This document shows positions 48,935 through 56,417 of a stretch of 64,000 nucleotides of DNA, piece after piece. Under the pieces are notes generated by a model. That model searched no databases and was not told the DNA's origin. It was given only the letters and a program-made list of their open reading frames with translations. The DNA lies in the NCBI RefSeq assembly GCF_000153165.2, contig NC_014472.1, positions 927,501 to 991,500 of the forward strand. Reading direction: 5' to 3'. Position 1 is the stretch's first letter. Each line of letters begins with the position of its first letter. This DNA is from Maribacter sp. HTCC2170 (GTDB lineage Bacteria; Bacteroidota; Bacteroidia; Flavobacteriales; Flavobacteriaceae). A program made the translations under genes and the position numbers.

Positions 48935-51586
48935 TCAAAGTATAAAACGATAAGTGGCCTTGATTAAAAAAATGTTTTGTGGTTTTTCATCGTTAAAGAT
49001 ATTAGTCTTGAGGTCATCAAAAAGACCATCTTCTGAATTACCTGATTGGGAAATGTCCTGTGACCAAACCAGAAAAATTTCTGAACCGGGCGTATACTCC
49101 CAACGAACTACTAGATTTGAACGAAACTGAACAAAAGAAAAGTCAGGATTATCAAAACTAAAATCAATAGTACCATCTAAGTTATCATCAACGTTATAGA
49201 CATCATCAACAAAAGAAACTTGATTGCCAGCAAAAGGTGATATTCTCGCATTAAATTCTTTGGCCATTGGGTCTGTAACTTCCTTAAAATGAGAATAACG
49301 ACCCCTAGAGATAAAAGGTTGTCCCCAATATTGAATTGTTAAATTGGGATTTATGGTATAATTAAGTCGTAACGACATACTCAAGGTCCTCTGATCTACA
49401 GTACCGTTAAGGTATCTGGTTTCTCCGTTTACATCTAAATTGTCAATGTATTGTAACTTATTCCTATTTATCCCATATTCAGGTGATGCAGAAAACCGCA
49501 ACGAATTTATAGGTTGATAAGTTATTCCGAATTCCACATTATATGAGCTATAAGAACCATCTACGGCCTTATTCCCGTTATGGAACAAGTTAAACCTTAA
49601 TTTTTTTCTCCGGTCCATATTAATACCGTTCCAAAAACGAAATTGGGAAGACTCCCTAAGTCTTGGACCACCTCTTAAAGCGAAATTTGAATACCGAATG
49701 GGCTCAAAATTAAGACCAATATTGGAGAACCAATTATTCTTCCAGTTCTGCCAAGTGTTGGTGTTGAACATTAGACTGTTGTGGTTTCCTCCAAAATCCC
49801 AAACACTCCAGTGATTATAATTTATCCCAACTTTTCTAAAAGTATTATCTGGCTTTAAGGTCTGGTACCCAATCCAAGTGTAATGACGAATATCATCAGC
49901 CCGTCTTTGAAAACCAATATCGTTGATTTCCAAACCTGGTGAACGCCAGGTAGCGCCGGTTTCAAATTTCCAATGTCCGTTTCCTATTTTACCTAATTGA
50001 AGATTCCCGCCAGTACCTGAAAGTGAAGTTTTAGTAGGATCTAAAGCTACATGATCCGCCCCTACCCTTTGGAACAAGTGCGATATGGATTCTTGTGTGT
50101 TCTGAATAGCTTCTTCGCTACCTTTTACATGGCTCCAAATCACATTACCACCAATGTACCAATCACGTTCATTCCATTGATGCTTGAAATCAAGTCCGCC
50201 AGTAAACGCCGATTTATGAAGAAAATCAAGTCCTTCAGTAAGGTTGTTCCTATTGGTCGCAGTAAATATGCCTCCAATATAAGAGTTTCGATTATTGAAA
50301 TCTTTTTGTAATCTACCCACAAAATAGTTGGTCAAAGGTTCAACAACTTCTTTTCTTCTTTGCCCGTTATTATCAACTGTTGCATATTTTTTTGCCGTTA
50401 CGCTTTCCAAAACCCCAATAGACCAACCATCTTTAGTTTTTCCACTAAACTTTGCCGCACCGATTATGTTAGTGTTTTCAGGTTGATCCACATATTCTCC
50501 GTCAACTGTATCAGGATAACCATGAGGGCTTCTACCTATTCGTCTTGAATAAAACAAATTGTCGGAACCAAACGTATTTCCGGCCTCAGAAGATGAAACC
50601 CGGTAGTCAAAAATGTTTTTGTTTTCAACAAAAAAGGGTCTTTGCTCTCGGAAGAATATTTGAAACCCGTCTAACGCAATGGCGGAAGGATCCGCCTCTA
50701 CTTGACCAAAGTCCGGGTTAATAGTCAAATCGAGGGTCAAATCATTTGTAACCCCTATTTTGGCATCAAGCCCTCCAGTGAGCACTCCATCATTTCCGTC
50801 CCTAAAAGGGTTTCCATCCTCTGCTTCATATGTTTTTATGCTTGCCACTGTGTAAGGCTGAATTTCCATTAGCTTTTGTGGTTCAATATTTAGTAAGCCG
50901 TGAAGCTCACCAAATTCACTTACAAAACCGGGGGTATCTACAGGTAGCCGTTGCCATACCGATCGTTCTTCTTCCCTGAAATGTCTCCGCATAACCTCTA
51001 ATCCCCATTTCTGTTCATTTGATTTCCCGAACTTCAATTGGCTCAATGGTATTTTCATCTCAGCCGTCCACCCTTCATTATCAATGCTGGTTTTAGTATA
51101 CCAAATGGGGTTCCAACTATCATCTTCATTTCCACCATTATTAGACTCAAAAACATCTCCCTTAACACCAGCAGCACTTACAATAAAACCAAATGCTGTT
51201 CGCTTGTCATAAAAGCTATCTATAAAAACGCCAACCCAGTCCCCATCAAAACTATCTCTTCTTGAAAGACGCTTTACTATTTTATCAGGTTCATTGTCCA
51301 AACATTGTATACCTATATATATGAACTTTTGGTCATATGTAATTTTAAATCTAGTTTGATTACTTGGTTCTGTGTTCTCATCGGGTCTCGATTCAATAAA
51401 ATCATTTTCCCATTCCACACCATTCCATGCGGATTCATCCATAAAACCATCTATCACAAGCTGTTCACCTTGTGATATGGCATTGGTCGAATAAATTCTT
51501 TTGGGCACTACGATAGTTGAATCTTGGGCAAGCACAGACATTTGAACAATAACAATTGAACAAAACAATAGAAGATTGACTCTCAT
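48935..51586 (-). CDS. DUF5916 outer-membrane protein, copy 2
   Basis: 883 residues, starting with signal peptide MRVNLLLFCSIVIVQMSVLAQ. It matches copy 1 along its full length: LVIDGFMDESAW, FIYIGIQCLDNEPDKI, KRLSRRDSFDGDW, GWTAEMKIPLSQLKFG and the same final sequence LIKATYRFIL. The strong identity in the N-terminal half and weaker similarity in loops such as those near 330-345 indicate an old tandem duplication with later divergence. The product is presumed to be an outer-membrane barrel with a periplasmic carbohydrate-binding-like domain. No clear promoter found in the upstream 260 bases shared with rplM. Confidence 0.85.
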   Translation of the reverse strand: MRVNLLLFCSIVIVQMSVLAQDSTIVVPKRIYSTNAISQGEQLVIDGFMDESAWNGVEWENDFIESRPDENTEPSNQTRFKITYDQKFIYIGIQCLDNEPDKIVKRLSRRDSFDGDWVGVFIDSFYDKRTAFGFIVSAAGVKGDVFESNNGGNEDDSWNPIWYTKTSIDNEGWTAEMKIPLSQLKFGKSNEQKWGLEVMRRHFREEERSVWQRLPVDTPGFVSEFGELHGLLNIEPQKLMEIQPYTVASIKTYEAEDGNPFRDGNDGVLTGGLDAKIGVTNDLTLDLTINPDFGQVEADPSAIALDGFQIFFREQRPFFVENKNIFDYRVSSSEAGNTFGSDNLFYSRRIGRSPHGYPDTVDGEYVDQPENTNIIGAAKFSGKTKDGWSIGVLESVTAKKYATVDNNGQRRKEVVEPLTNYFVGRLQKDFNNRNSYIGGIFTATNRNNLTEGLDFLHKSAFTGGLDFKHQWNERDWYIGGNVIWSHVKGSEEAIQNTQESISHLFQRVGADHVALDPTKTSLSGTGGNLQLGKIGNGHWKFETGATWRSPGLEINDIGFQRRADDIRHYTWIGYQTLKPDNTFRKVGINYNHWSVWDFGGNHNSLMFNTNTWQNWKNNWFSNIGLNFEPIRYSNFALRGGPRLRESSQFRFWNGINMDRRKKLRFNLFHNGNKAVDGSYSSYNVEFGITYQPINSLRFSASPEYGINRNKLQYIDNLDVNGETRYLNGTVDQRTLSMSLRLNYTINPNLTIQYWGQPFISRGRYSHFKEVTDPMAKEFNARISPFAGNQVSFVDDVYNVDDNLDGTIDFSFDNPDFSFVQFRSNLVVRWEYTPGSEIFLVWSQDISQSGNSEDGLFDDLKTNIFNDEKPQNIFLIKATYRFIL

Positions 51587-51768
51587 TTGTGTTAGTTGTA
51601 TGATTGATGTTCTATTAAAGACTAAACCTCAATAGAAACGTTACAGCTCACTAACTTTTTTAAGGTTTATTTAACACAATTTTTCAGCCTTGAATCAAGG
51701 AGAATAAAGAAAAATAAAATGCTACCTTGCTACGTTTTTTATCGGAAAAAAATAATCAGAACTAAGCA

Positions 51769-51799
51769 TTTGTATTTCTACATAATAATTGTACATTTG
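51769..51799 (+). promoter_or_regulatory. rplM: Promoter of rplM-rpsI
   Basis: TTTG (51769-51772) and TACATTTG (51792-51799), 19 bases apart: an exact consensus pair. The inferred start is near 51805, about 40 bases before the rplM start codon. Confidence 0.75.
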
Positions 51800-51802
51800 C
51801 AC

Positions 51803-51815
51803 CCCGTTTAACGGG
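51803..51815 (+). other. Hairpin at the 5-prime end of the rplM mRNA
   Basis: CCCGTT T AACGGG is a near-perfect inverted repeat at or just before the inferred transcript start. From memory, ribosomal-protein leaders for L13 have been described in Bacteroidia; whether this short hairpin belongs to that class needs a covariance-model search. Confidence 0.45.
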
Positions 51816-51846
51816 ATTGAAGTATTTAATCAATAAAATTATTAGT

Positions 51847-52302
51847 GTGGACACATTAAGCTACAAGACTATTTCTGCCAATAAGGCTACTGTAAACAAG
51901 CAGTGGTTGTTGGTTGATGCCGAAGGAGAGACATTAGGACGTTTAGCTTCTAAAGTTGCTAAATTACTTAGAGGCAAACACAAACCTAGTTTTACTCCCC
52001 ATGTTGATTGTGGAGATAACGTTGTTATAATCAATGCCGAAAAAATAACCCTTTCAGGGAATAAGTGGGATAGCAAATCTTACAGTCGTTATACTGGTTA
52101 CCCAGGTGGTCAACGTACGACAACCGTAAAGCAAATGTTGGATAAGAATCCAGGTAGAATTGTTGAAAAAGCAGTTAAGGGTATGCTTCCTAAAAATAGA
52201 TTAGGGGCAGATCTTTTCAGAAACCTTAAGGTTTATGTAGGGCCAGACCATAATCAAGAAGCTCAAAAACCAACTGCAATAAATCTAAACGACTTTAAAT
52301 AA
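51847..52302 (+). CDS. rplM: 50S ribosomal protein L13
   Basis: The protein must start near GTG 51847, giving (V/M)[15 protein letters not shown] and 151 residues, the usual L13 length; there is no in-frame ATG, and the alternative TTG at 51817 would add 10 residues that do not look like L13. Family blocks are [37 protein letters not shown] and [14 protein letters not shown]13 is an early-assembly 50S protein. Its stop and the rpsI start share one base (TAATG), so the two are translationally coupled. Confidence 0.95.
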
Positions 52303-52688
52303 TGGAAGTAATTCATAAAATTGGTAGAAGAAAAACAGCTGTGGCCCGTGTTTACCTTTCAGAAGGTAAAGGGAACATCACTGTTAACGAAAAAGAACTA
52401 AACACCTATTTCCCGACTGCCACACTTCAATATAAAGTAAAGCAAGCATTTGCATTGACAAGCACCGAGGACAATTATGACGTTAAGGTCAATGTTTATG
52501 GTGGAGGTATAACCGGTCAAGCAGAAGCTATTAGATTGGCCCTTTCAAGAGCATTGTGCGAAATTGATGAGGAAAACAGAACAACACTTAAACCAGAAGG
52601 CTTATTGACCAGAGACCCAAGAATGGTTGAACGTAAGAAATTCGGACAGAAGAAAGCCCGTAAGAAATTCCAGTTCTCTAAGCGTTAA
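52302..52688 (+). CDS. rpsI: 30S ribosomal protein S9
   Basis: 128 residues starting [22 protein letters not shown], the S9 signature, and ending in the basic tail [18 protein letters not shown], whose terminal arginine reaches the P-site tRNA in the ribosome. Coupled to rplM by a one-base overlap, the universal rplM-rpsI pair. Followed by a hairpin with a T-run. Confidence 0.98.
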
Positions 52689-52701
52689 TATCAGAATTAT
52701 C

Positions 52702-52731
52702 AGGTGTTCTTTTTTTAAGAACACCTTTATT
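52702..52731 (+). terminator. Terminator after rpsI
   Basis: AGGTGTTCTT (52702-52711) and AAGAACACCT (52717-52726) form a 10-base stem with loop TTTTT, then TTATT. The tail is weak in T, so some read-through into rpsB is possible. Confidence 0.75.
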
Positions 52732-52756
52732 ATATTTTATAACTAGTTCATTGAAA

Positions 52757-52925
52757 GTCTCTTTAAGAGACAATTAAAAAATCCCTTTTCCATTTCCAAT
52801 GGAAATTATCAATTCAACAAAATGAATTGATTTAAGGGTAAGTTAGTTTAGCATCTAAATGTGCGAGGCTTCTGAATTGATCAGATACCACTCGAACATT
52901 GCTAATTCATAAGAACGTAAACTAA
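52757..52925 (+). promoter_or_regulatory. Structured rpsB leader RNA
   Basis: The leader before rpsB is packed with perfect stems. (a) GTCTCTT/AAGAGAC at 52757-52771. (b) An outer CCCTT/AAGGG (52783-52787 / 52834-52838) enclosing two hairpins: TTTCCATT/AATGGAAA (52787-52794 / 52798-52805) and ATCAATTCA/TGAATTGAT (52808-52816 / 52823-52831). (c) A long hairpin 52858-52900: AATGT/ACATT, CGAG/CTCG, an internal loop, TCTGA/TCAGA, loop ATTGA. (d) Around (c), either TTAGC/GCTAA (52848-52852 / 52901-52905) or TTAGTTTA/TAAACTAA (52843-52850 / 52918-52925), which share bases and exclude each other. The last arm lies 7 bases before the rpsB ATG. Only a weak -7 box (TATATTTT, 52731-52738) is seen upstream. 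Confidence 0.7.
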
Positions 52926-52932
52926 ATTTAAA

Positions 52933-54057
52933 ATGGCGAAAGTCGAAGTAAAAGAATTATTGGAAGCAGGTGTACATTTTGGTCACCTAACAAGAAAATG
53001 GAATCCCAACATGGCGCCCTACATCTACATGGAGCGCAACGGAATCCACGTTATCAACCTTTACAAAACAGTAGCAAAATTAGATGAGGCCAATGAGGCG
53101 CTCAAAAAAATAGCTGCTTCTGGCCGAAAAATACTTTTCGTTGCTACCAAAAAACAAGCAAAAGATATAGTTGCCGATAAAGTGGCAAATGTAAACATGC
53201 CATACATTACTGAAAGATGGCCTGGTGGAATGTTGACCAACTTCGTTACAATACGTAAAGCTGTTAAGAAAATGGCTTCTATCGATAGAATGAAAAAAGA
53301 TGGCACATTTCTTACATTATCTAAAAAAGAACGTCTTCAAGTAGATCGTTTAAGAGCAAAATTAGAAAAGAACTTAGGTTCTATTTCTGAAATGACACGT
53401 CTTCCTGGTGCACTTTTTATTGTTGATACAATGAGAGAACACATTGCTGTCAAAGAAGCGCAAAAATTGAACATTCCTATTTTCGCAATGGTAGATACCA
53501 ATTGTGATCCTAGAGATGTTGATTTTGTAGTACCATCAAATGATGATGCCTCAAAGTCTATCGAAATCATAATGACACAAGTTACCGATGCTGTAGCGGA
53601 AGGTTTGGCTGAACGCAAAGCTGAAAAACAAGGTGATGCTCCTAAAGCCAAAACCGAGGCCCCTAAAAAGGAAGCCCCAAAGGTTAAAGCCGCCCCTGCT
53701 CCAGCTGCTACTGAAGAGAAGCCTGCTAAAAAAGTAGAGAAGGCTAAAGCTGAAGCACCGAAAAAAGAGACTCCTAAAAAAGAGACAAAGGCAAAGGCCC
53801 CTAAGGCAGATGACCTTACCAAAATTGAAGGTATAGGACCTAAAGCCGCTGAAGCTATTGTAAATGCTGGCATCGAGACTTATGCTAAACTTGCAAAAGC
53901 AAAGGCTGATAAAATCAAAGAGATTTTGACCGAGGCTAGTTCAAGAATGGCCCATTTAGATCCAACCTCATGGCCAAAGCAAGCCAAAATGGCTGCAGAT
54001 GGAAAATGGGACGAGCTTAAGGAATGGCAAGACAACACCAAAGGTGGTGTTGAATAA
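52933..54057 (+). CDS. rpsB: 30S ribosomal protein S2 with C-terminal helix-hairpin-helix extension
   Basis: 374 residues, about 120-140 more than a typical S2. Residues 1-225 are a normal S2: VKELLEAGVHFGHLTRKWNP, RWPGGMLTNF, LPGALFIVDTMREHIAV and IPIFAMVDTNCDP. Residues about 230-294 form a linker of Ala, Lys, Pro and Glu. Residues 295-365 form a helix-hairpin-helix-like module: LTKIEGIGPKAAEAIVNAGI, ETYAKLAKA and SWPKQAKMAADGKWDELKEW. Such modules usually bind nucleic acid or pair with each other. Its mRNA has an elaborate leader. rpsB-tsf is the expected gene pair. Confidence 0.97.
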   Translation: MAKVEVKELLEAGVHFGHLTRKWNPNMAPYIYMERNGIHVINLYKTVAKLDEANEALKKIAASGRKILFVATKKQAKDIVADKVANVNMPYITERWPGGMLTNFVTIRKAVKKMASIDRMKKDGTFLTLSKKERLQVDRLRAKLEKNLGSISEMTRLPGALFIVDTMREHIAVKEAQKLNIPIFAMVDTNCDPRDVDFVVPSNDDASKSIEIIMTQVTDAVAEGLAERKAEKQGDAPKAKTEAPKKEAPKVKAAPAPAATEEKPAKKVEKAKAEAPKKETPKKETKAKAPKADDLTKIEGIGPKAAEAIVNAGIETYAKLAKAKADKIKEILTEASSRMAHLDPTSWPKQAKMAADGKWDELKEWQDNTKGGVE

Positions 54058-54123
54058 TTTCAAGGATAAAAAATAACTATAGAGATTTCCTTTTAAACGG
54101 GAACAACAATAAATAATTCAGAT

Positions 54124-54948
54124 ATGGCAAAAATTACCGCCGCAGAAGTAAACAAATTAAGAAAGACCACTGGAGCAGGTATGATGGACTGCAAAAATGC
54201 ATTGGTCGAAGCAGAAGGGGATTTTGAAAAAGCAATCGAGATTCTACGGAAAAAAGGGCAAAAGGTAGCCGCTAAAAGAGCTGATCGAGAGTCCTCTGAA
54301 GGTGCCGCTATTGCTAAAGTAAATGCTGACAACACTACTGGTGTAATCATTTCATTGAATTGTGAAACGGATTTCGTTGCAAAAAACGACAGCTTTGTTT
54401 CATTGGCAAATGACCTAGCCGATGTTGCTCTTGGACATGAAAGTAAAGAGACATTTCTTGCAGCTGATTTTAACGGATTGAGTGTTCAGGAAAAATTAAC
54501 TGAGCAAACAGGAGTTATTGGCGAAAAAATAGAAATTGGCGGTTTCAACAAGCTTAACGCACCGTTTGTAGGATCATATATTCACGCTGGAAACAAGATA
54601 GCCACTTTGGTCGGACTTTCTGCTTCGATTGAAGGCGCTGCTGTCGCTGCTAAGGATGTTGCTATGCAAGCTGCCGCTATGAATCCGGTTGCCTTAAATG
54701 AAGAAGGTGTTGATCAATCTGTAATCGATAAGGAAATTGAGATTGCAAAAGACCAATTACGCCAAGAAGGTAAGCCAGAAGCAATGTTGGAAAATATTGC
54801 CAAAGGAAAACTTAAACGTTTCTTCAAGGATAACACCTTGGTGAACCAAGCATTCATTAAAGACAGTAAACAAAGTGTAGCACAGTATGTAAAATCTGTT
54901 GATGCTGATTTAACTGTTACAGGATTTGCAAGAGTTGCCCTAGGGTAA
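54124..54948 (+). CDS. tsf: Translation elongation factor EF-Ts
   Basis: Nucleotide exchange factor for EF-Tu. 274 residues, normal size. The UBA-like N-terminus is AAEVNKLRKTTGAGMMDCKNAL with FEKAIEILRKKG, and the core contains NCETDFVAKNDSF and GSYIHAGNKIATLVGL, the EF-Tu contact region. It lies 66 bases after rpsB and ends at a strong terminator, so rpsB-tsf is probably a two-gene unit. Confidence 0.98.
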   Translation: MAKITAAEVNKLRKTTGAGMMDCKNALVEAEGDFEKAIEILRKKGQKVAAKRADRESSEGAAIAKVNADNTTGVIISLNCETDFVAKNDSFVSLANDLADVALGHESKETFLAADFNGLSVQEKLTEQTGVIGEKIEIGGFNKLNAPFVGSYIHAGNKIATLVGLSASIEGAAVAAKDVAMQAAAMNPVALNEEGVDQSVIDKEIEIAKDQLRQEGKPEAMLENIAKGKLKRFFKDNTLVNQAFIKDSKQSVAQYVKSVDADLTVTGFARVALG

Positions 54949-54973
54949 TTTCAGCACCAAACTAATTCAGTTG

Positions 54974-55004
54974 ACCGCCATACCAAAAGTATGGCGGTTT
55001 TTTG
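54974..55004 (+). terminator. Terminator after tsf
   Basis: ACCGCCATAC (54974-54983) and GTATGGCGGT (54989-54998) with loop CAAAA, then six T residues. A strong intrinsic terminator. Confidence 0.93.
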
Positions 55005-55083
55005 TTTGTAGCCCTAATTGGTAGAATAGAAAAAAGCCTCGCTTTAACCTTTAAAACTAAACCCGCTCGTCAGATTTTTTGAT

Positions 55084-55091
55084 TATTTTTG
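55084..55091 (+). promoter_or_regulatory. Candidate -7 box of pyrH-frr
   Basis: TATTTTTG matches TAnnTTTG exactly, 20 bases before the pyrH ATG. No clear -33 element at the usual distance. The rest of the tsf-pyrH gap shows nothing else. Confidence 0.5.
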
Positions 55092-55110
55092 CCGTAAAGA
55101 ATCACAAAGC

Positions 55111-55818
55111 ATGCACTATAACAGAATATTATTAAAACTGAGCGGCGAGGCCCTCATGGGTGAAAAACAATATGGTATCGACCCAAAAAGGCTTGCTGAA
55201 TATGCTCAAGAAATAAAAGAAGTTGTGGATAAAGGCATGCAAGTAGCAATAGTTATTGGCGGTGGCAATATTTTCAGGGGACTTGCCGGAGCAAGTAACG
55301 GTATGGATCGTGTTCAAGGCGATCACATGGGTATGTTAGCCACTGTAATAAACGGTTTGGCACTCCAAAGTGCTTTAGAGATTGAAGGCGTTGAAACCAG
55401 GTTACAATCTGCAATTAAGATAAATGAGGTTGCCGAACCTTTTATCAGGAGACGTGCAATGAGACATTTAGAAAAGGGAAGAGTGGTTATATTTGGAGGA
55501 GGAACTGGAAACCCGTACTTTACAACAGATTCCGCAGCCGTTTTACGAGCTATTGAAATTGAGGCTGATGTTATATTAAAAGGAACCCGTGTTGATGGCA
55601 TTTATACTTCTGATCCAGAAAAGAATAAAGACGCTACAAAGTTTGACTCCATTTCATTCAACGATGTGCTAAGAAAAGGATTAAAGGTTATGGATACAAC
55701 TGCATTTACTCTGAGTCAAGAAAATGAACTCCCTATCATTGTTTTTGATATGAACAAGAAAGGTAATCTATTGAGGGTTCTTGATGGAGAAAATGTGGGC
55801 ACCAAAGTAAATCTATAG
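55111..55818 (+). CDS. pyrH: UMP kinase
   Basis: Phosphorylates UMP to UDP; the hexameric bacterial enzyme of the amino-acid kinase fold. 235 residues. Motifs: [20 protein letters not shown] at the start, [10 protein letters not shown] in the nucleotide/substrate loop, [19 protein letters not shown] and [14 protein letters not shown]. Gene order pyrH-frr is conserved; frr begins 41 bases later. Confidence 0.98.
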
Positions 55819-55859
55819 TTTGGTATAATTTATGTTAGTTTGATTTTAAAGCTTAAGTT

Positions 55860-56417
55860 ATGAACGAAGAAATTAAATTTATTTTAGACGCCACCAAAGA
55901 AAGTATGGACGCGGCTATCACACATCTTGAAAAAGAATTTGTAAAAATCCGCGCTGGAAAAGCAAACCCAGCCATGTTGTCTTCCGTTATGGTAGATTAT
56001 TACGGATCTCAAACACCATTATCACAAGTGGCAAATATAAATACGCCTGATGGTCGAACATTATCCGTACAGCCTTGGGAAAAGAATATGCTCCAAGAAA
56101 TTGAAACTGCTATTATGCATGCCAATCTTGGATTTAACCCAATGAACAATGGGGATTTTGTCATCATAAACGTACCCCCTCTAACCGAGGAAAGAAGAAT
56201 CCAATTGGCCAAACAGGCTAAAGCTGAAGCAGAGCATGCCAAAGTAGGAGCTCGTAATGCCAGACAGGAGGCCAACAAAGAAATTAAAGACCTGGATGAC
56301 GCTTCAGAGGATATGAAGAAGAATGCAGAAATGGACGTTCAAGACTTAACGGACAAATACAGTAAAAAAATAGATGATTTCCTAGCTGCCAAGGAGGCCG
56401 AAATCATGAAGGTATAG
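55860..56417 (+). CDS. frr: Ribosome recycling factor
   Basis: Splits post-termination ribosomes with EF-G. 185 residues, standard size. The three-helix bundle shows LEKEFVKIRAGKANPAMLSS, then VDYYGSQTPLSQVANINTPDGRTL and the second helix pair EERRIQLAKQAKAEAEHAKVGARNARQEANKE (given in pieces: EERRIQLAKQAK, GARNARQEANKE). Last gene of the pyrH-frr pair, with a strong terminator after it. Confidence 0.98.
   Translation: MNEEIKFILDATKESMDAAITHLEKEFVKIRAGKANPAMLSSVMVDYYGSQTPLSQVANINTPDGRTLSVQPWEKNMLQEIETAIMHANLGFNPMNNGDFVIINVPPLTEERRIQLAKQAKAEAEHAKVGARNARQEANKEIKDLDDASEDMKKNAEMDVQDLTDKYSKKIDDFLAAKEAEIMKV

Follow-up and report, generated by a model that had tools for sequence, protein, structure and literature searches.

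Autoregulation by ribosomal protein S2 is established in E. coli, where it proceeds through a leader different from the one described here (PMC10931766, PMC2704228) and where S2 represses well only together with S1 (PMC10931766). S2 leaders have been described in Proteobacteria, Cyanobacteria, and Firmicutes (PMC2704228). The t44, or rpsB, motif (RF00127) forms a three-stem junction whose J2-3 makes a pseudoknot with the segment 3' of P1, and leaves the ribosome-binding site outside the operator (PMC2704228). Table 1 of PMC7247131 contains no S2 leader for Bacteroidota; the S4-, S15-, and S16-Flavobacteria leaders, found computationally in the same lineage as the present locus and likewise located before ribosomal protein (r-protein) genes, belong to other genes (PMC7247131). 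A list of 64 structured 5' regions is given for Flavobacterium psychrophilum (PMC9723704, Table S7), while in Flavobacterium johnsoniae an rpsB'-gfp fusion was made for another question (PMC9976891). No rpsB leader of Bacteroidota was found in the open papers searched, subscription journals and supplements (e.g., Table S7 of PMC9723704) being outside the scope of the search.

The window, a 64,000-nt stretch of DNA from Maribacter sp. HTCC2170, derives from a Flavobacteriaceae chromosome, and its closest S2 homolog (97% identity) comes from a Maribacter metagenome-assembled genome. On the plus strand, which also bears the hairpins and leader parts described below, it carries the gene order rplM-rpsI-rpsB-tsf-pyrH-frr, the first four genes being identified by Pfam matches. 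The rpsB gene (52933-54057), presumed to be the regulated gene and to encode the ligand, specifies an S2 protein of 374 amino acids (Pfam Ribosomal_S2, 4e-90; HHH_5, 5e-9), whose C-terminal third contains a linker rich in Lys, Ala, and Glu as well as a helix-hairpin-helix domain (HHH_5). The xGIGP signature occurs in S2 at 40 of 78 loci of the Flavobacteriaceae set, at one of 95 other element-bearing loci, and at none of 25 element-less ones; a link between the RNA element described below and the helix-hairpin-helix extension was rejected, the two showing almost no association outside Flavobacteriaceae. The rpsI gene is followed by a terminator-like hairpin (52702-52726; a 10-bp perfect stem with a 5-nt loop) and a T-rich tract. 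Beside this hairpin lies the sole candidate for a separate promoter in the rpsI-rpsB gap, a weak TATATTTT at 52731, whereas the canonical Bacteroidota -7 box TACATTTG is found at 51792, 5' of rplM. An upstream open reading frame was also discarded: the AUG at 52859 starts a short frame, and some relatives lack this AUG (AAATG being replaced by AAATA or AAAC).

A sequence-only reading of this locus had interpreted 52757-52925 as a leader of five perfect stems with two mutually exclusive pairings. The stems are located as claimed, with arms of 7 bp (52757-52763/52765-52771), 8 bp (52787-52794/52798-52805), and 9 bp (52808-52816/52823-52831); the compound stem CCCTT/AAGGG, enclosing the 8-bp and 9-bp stems, and the long hairpin 52848-52905 are present as well. 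The claim that this structure exceeds chance also stands, since 52757-52925 folds at -42.6 kcal/mol, whereas its dinucleotide shuffles give -24.7 +/- 3.5 (z -5.1), and contains three perfect hairpins with an arm of at least 7 (0.23 expected; 0 of 1000 shuffles reach three). However, the excess resides mostly in the upstream half (z -4.0 for 52741-52840), whereas the conserved core alone has a z of -1.9, so that folding energy by itself would miss the important part. The 170-nt unit itself is not supported, as its upstream stems are lineage-specific and the core begins directly after rpsI in several families. This core, an element of ~82 nt located directly 5' of rpsB (52844-52924), is a smaller and clearer functional part than the leader originally outlined.

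In its consensus, the core consists of a closing stem P1 (7 bp, UAGUUUA/UAAACUA), a 3x3 internal loop (GNA/ANG), a short stem P1b (UCY/RGA), and P2 (11 pairs), a variable hairpin whose upper part has a conserved bulged A. The 5' arm of P1 (52844-52850) pairs with the 3' arm (52918-52924), which ends 8 nt 5' of the rpsB start codon. With U52843 the stem extends to 8 bp, and TTAGTTTA (52843-52850) pairs with TAAACTAA (52918-52925), terminating 7 nt 5' of the ATG at 52933, as had been proposed. The internal loop comprises 52851-52853 and 52915-52917, and its 5' side displays a near-invariant G.A in the alignments. P1b is formed by 52854-52856 and 52912-52914, and P2 by 52858-52868 and 52889-52900, with one G.A mismatch in the window (52863/52895). 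The bulged A (52890) lies between neighboring pairs that each have both-sides changes. The apical part of P2 (52869-52888, with a top stem 52871-52875/52881-52885 according to the alignments and the window fold) varies in length and sequence, and is short or absent in some relatives. Within the 3' linker (52901-52911), G52901 is conserved; the remainder, including GCUAA, is unconserved outside Flavobacteriaceae. A kink-turn in P2 was considered and rejected by eye, with GA/GA occurring in some sequences only and a 3-nt bulge lacking.

The covariation expected of a genuine leader is present in aligned rpsB leaders. Among 76 class-wide sequences (alignment A6), 15 of 21 pairs have both-sides changes, the number of cells with such changes is 326 (102 +/- 9 when shuffled; score 0.503 versus 0.170), and 93.8% of cells are paired, as against at most 47% in slid controls. 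P1, almost invariant within Flavobacteriaceae, covaries across the class: 91% of its cells are paired, and four of its seven pairs change on both sides, GC becoming AU, for instance, in two sequences (L136 and L137) and UA becoming CG in five (UUUA/UAAA to UUCA/UGAA in L171, L207, L218, and L219, and to UUCA/UGGA in L191). In P2, 95% of cells are paired and 10 of 11 pairs have both-sides changes. P1b is 94% paired with 20 both-sides changes in total; 18 sequences have C-G in place of U-A as its third pair. Because the model used to fit the alignment contained P1 and P2 and omitted P1b, the covariation of P1b is the less biased result; P1 was also counted on motif-anchored sequences.

The same counts bear on the proposed switch, in which TTAGC (52848-52852) pairs with GCTAA (52901-52905) in competition with P1, both pairings being functional states. 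In the window the two are nearly isoenergetic (-17.9 with P1, -17.3 with the alternative, a gap of 0.6 kcal/mol), and within Flavobacteriaceae 90% of the cells of the alternative are paired. The TTAGC/GCTAA pairing may thus form, yet evolution does not keep it: it is lost in entire lineages elsewhere, several of which cannot form it, and class-wide 65% of its cells are paired and a both-sides change is seen once, whereas P1 reaches 91% with four covarying pairs. A two-state switch is consequently very improbable, and P1 is the only conserved and covarying member of the two exclusive pairings. The r-protein leader layout seen in the sequence-only reading therefore stands in part: the region is structured, strongly covarying, and linked to rpsB, but the switch is not supported.

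The core is present at all 81 rpsB loci of the Flavobacteriaceae set (80 loci from Flavobacteriaceae and near relatives, and the window), which share with minor variation the pattern TAGTTTAGCATCYAAAT, a variable hairpin, ATTGC..., and then GAACGTAAACTA. A covariance model (R1) matches 61 of 119 Flavobacteriales genomes, once in each except for two genomes with a second match, and a wider model (R2) matches 46 of 296 Bacteroidia genomes, in 11 families besides Flavobacteriaceae. With a further model (R3), 36 matches were obtained in a 297-genome draw from the phylum (its share of genomes from other classes is not stated), none of them outside Bacteroidia. These class-wide counts are lower bounds, because divergent copies exist in genomes that are negative at the strict threshold: sub-threshold matches in G122 and G290 both lie directly 5' of rpsB, and among 28 of 30 model-negative genomes that stay negative at E<=1, one (G126, locus L207) has a divergent copy. 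Many Bacteroidia nevertheless lack the element, having just a short rpsI-rpsB spacer with mostly no trace of it; it is therefore not essential in the class. The median rpsI-rpsB distance is ~30 nt in model-negative genomes, a value slightly inflated by four element-bearing loci missed by the regular expression (L057, L061, L068, and L076), versus 174 nt where the element is present. A clear GGAGG Shine-Dalgarno sequence precedes rpsB at the element-less loci L216, L223, and L228, which is unusual for a class that mostly ignores it. Compensation of the missing element by a Shine-Dalgarno sequence was rejected, as these are the only three such cases in ~25 element-less genomes.

Linkage to rpsB is nearly complete. 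At 119 of 122 distinct loci, the GVHFGH motif of S2 follows 23-54 nt past the end of the element, while in the remaining three the sequence past the element is cut off by a contig end or Ns. Thus, a covarying structure lies directly 5' of an r-protein gene, as in r-protein leaders generally. At no testable locus among the 122 does the element precede rplM, rpsI, or tsf instead. It is probable that the core is a cis-acting r-protein leader of rpsB, representing a new RNA family of Bacteroidia, which is bound by S2 and blocks initiation. S2 is the natural candidate ligand: its gene comes first after the element, and the protein is known to autoregulate in other organisms. It is unlikely, given this adjacency, that a true rpsB regulator responds to another ligand, such as S1, S9, EF-Ts, S2 acting only jointly with S1, or else the free 30S subunit. 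This possibility draws on the need of E. coli S2 for S1 in good repression (PMC10931766), and on the neighborhood, with rpsI at 173 of 175 loci and tsf visible at 152, so that genomic context cannot single out S2. Nor does the element resemble 16S rRNA in sequence: mimicry at this level was rejected at a local score of 18.0 against the 16S of the same genome (shuffled 17.8 +/- 2.1, i.e., chance level), and the assignment of S2 thus receives no support from rRNA mimicry. Besides the full 16S gene, the genome contains a second 16S-like match in pieces (G000:C1:307528-308752; 844.7 and 285.5 bits).

The position of P1 suggests how S2 might act. Bacteroidia initiate translation mostly without Shine-Dalgarno pairing, which makes the locus a clean, testable case of RNA structure controlling initiation. 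P1 mostly ends 5-15 nt 5' of the start codon, its arm GUAAAC directly abuts the AUG at ten loci (L109, L112, L114, L115, L118, L124, L126, L127, L134, and L147), and in one family the first bases of the AUG can pair within P1, which makes a block of initiation the simplest reading. S2 in excess over 16S rRNA would bind the element, probably at the 3x3 loop with P1b, at the bulged A of P2, or at both, and would stabilize P1 over the stretch that has to be single-stranded for loading of the 30S subunit in the absence of a Shine-Dalgarno sequence. Closure of P1 would lower translation of rpsB and, by coupling, of tsf; once newly made ribosomes take up S2, P1, which is weak and rich in A and U, would open and translation would restart. 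Most likely, surplus S2 shuts off its own production via the leader, and the weak 7-bp P1 might not suffice to block initiation alone. In some lineages the core begins 2-5 nt 3' of the rpsI stop codon, implying that it acts within a polycistronic mRNA and does not need a promoter of its own. This location between co-directional r-protein genes, together with the terminator-like hairpin 3' of rpsI in the window, would also suit a ligand-free constitutive structure, either a 5' stabilizer or an RNase-processing site dividing the rpsB-tsf part of the polycistronic mRNA from the rplM-rpsI part. Such a role is, however, quite improbable, since the highly conserved unpaired nucleotides (the 3x3 loop, UUG, and the bulged A) resemble a recognition site, and the placement at the start codon would lower translation unless some mechanism relieved it.

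Upstream of the S2-responsive leader favored here, many Flavobacteriaceae appear to carry accessory parts. The Flavobacteriaceae-specific segment AGTTCATTGAAA (52745-52756) is boxA-like by its sequence: GTTCATTGA is found 52-118 nt 5' of P1 at 42 of 81 loci (0.06 expected), and the same genome has the near-identical GAAGTTCATTGGAAT 133 nt 5' of 16S rRNA and CAAGTTCATTGACAT past it, the motif occurring twice past 16S. The segment 52745-52756 thus corresponds to the sequence common to the leader and the spacer of the rRNA operon. Directly 3' of the motif is the hairpin GTCTCTT/AAGAGAC (52757-52771), the first of the five stems; relatives have a hairpin in the same place with another spelling (e.g., GTCC/GGAC or AACCCTGAAA/TTTCAGGGTT), and a stem of at least 6 follows the boxA-like motif at 60% of the loci, versus 33% when shuffled. 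Between this part and P1, a compound hairpin (52783-52837, stems two to four) folds strongly in the window, but its sequence and shape are unconserved, and it is missing where the core follows rpsI directly. In many Flavobacteriaceae (e.g., L030, L052, L067, and L100), a GTTGTYGTTGY-like motif and then a hairpin lie just 5' of P1, possibly a second accessory part. A tentative extension is dual control: S2 leaders across the class would close a weak stem over the landing site or AUG, and in many Flavobacteriaceae an rRNA-type boxA would be added. If so, the mRNA for S2 and EF-Ts would be under rRNA-like antitermination and S2 feedback together. Flavobacterium johnsoniae, with its reporters and genetics, is suited to testing the leader.

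Compared with the known systems, the element belongs to a familiar kind, the r-protein leader, and appears to be a new RNA family. The rRNA boxA, a site of NusB/S10 antitermination, is resembled by AGTTCATTGAAA at 52745 in that similar motifs lie 5' of the 16S gene and within the 16S-23S spacer of this genome; the putative site differs in being confined to a part of Flavobacteriaceae and in lying outside the class-wide element. The sequence-only reading knew of no matching Rfam family, and Rfam 15 indeed contains none for the element, though its models do recognize t44 of E. coli as well as the L13-Bacteroidia leader. The latter (RF03127; PMC7247131) is an r-protein leader of the same operon and class; however, it precedes rplM and has another structure. 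At locus L190 its model matches only ~1 kb 5' of the rpsB element, so that both leaders occur in the same stretch; the rpsB element was therefore rejected as an L13-Bacteroidia leader, and would serve a protein other than L13. Membership in t44 was rejected by covariance model and by architecture: no t44 match was found in the window at 51000-56000 even at E<=5 (83.5 bits for the E. coli positive control), nor at the gathering threshold in 38 related loci, and no conserved pseudoknot partner was seen by eye in the short A-rich stretch past P1, which one family lacks entirely. Both t44 and the element lie right before rpsB, have a closing stem and variable upper stems, and share S2 as the presumed ligand; but whereas t44 has its junction and pseudoknot, the element is a single interrupted hairpin without a junction, and its P1 lies beside or over the start codon. 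The element would thus fill a gap in the map of r-protein regulation, no S2 leader of Bacteroidota having been found in the literature searched, and would represent, for the same protein, a solution unrelated in structure.
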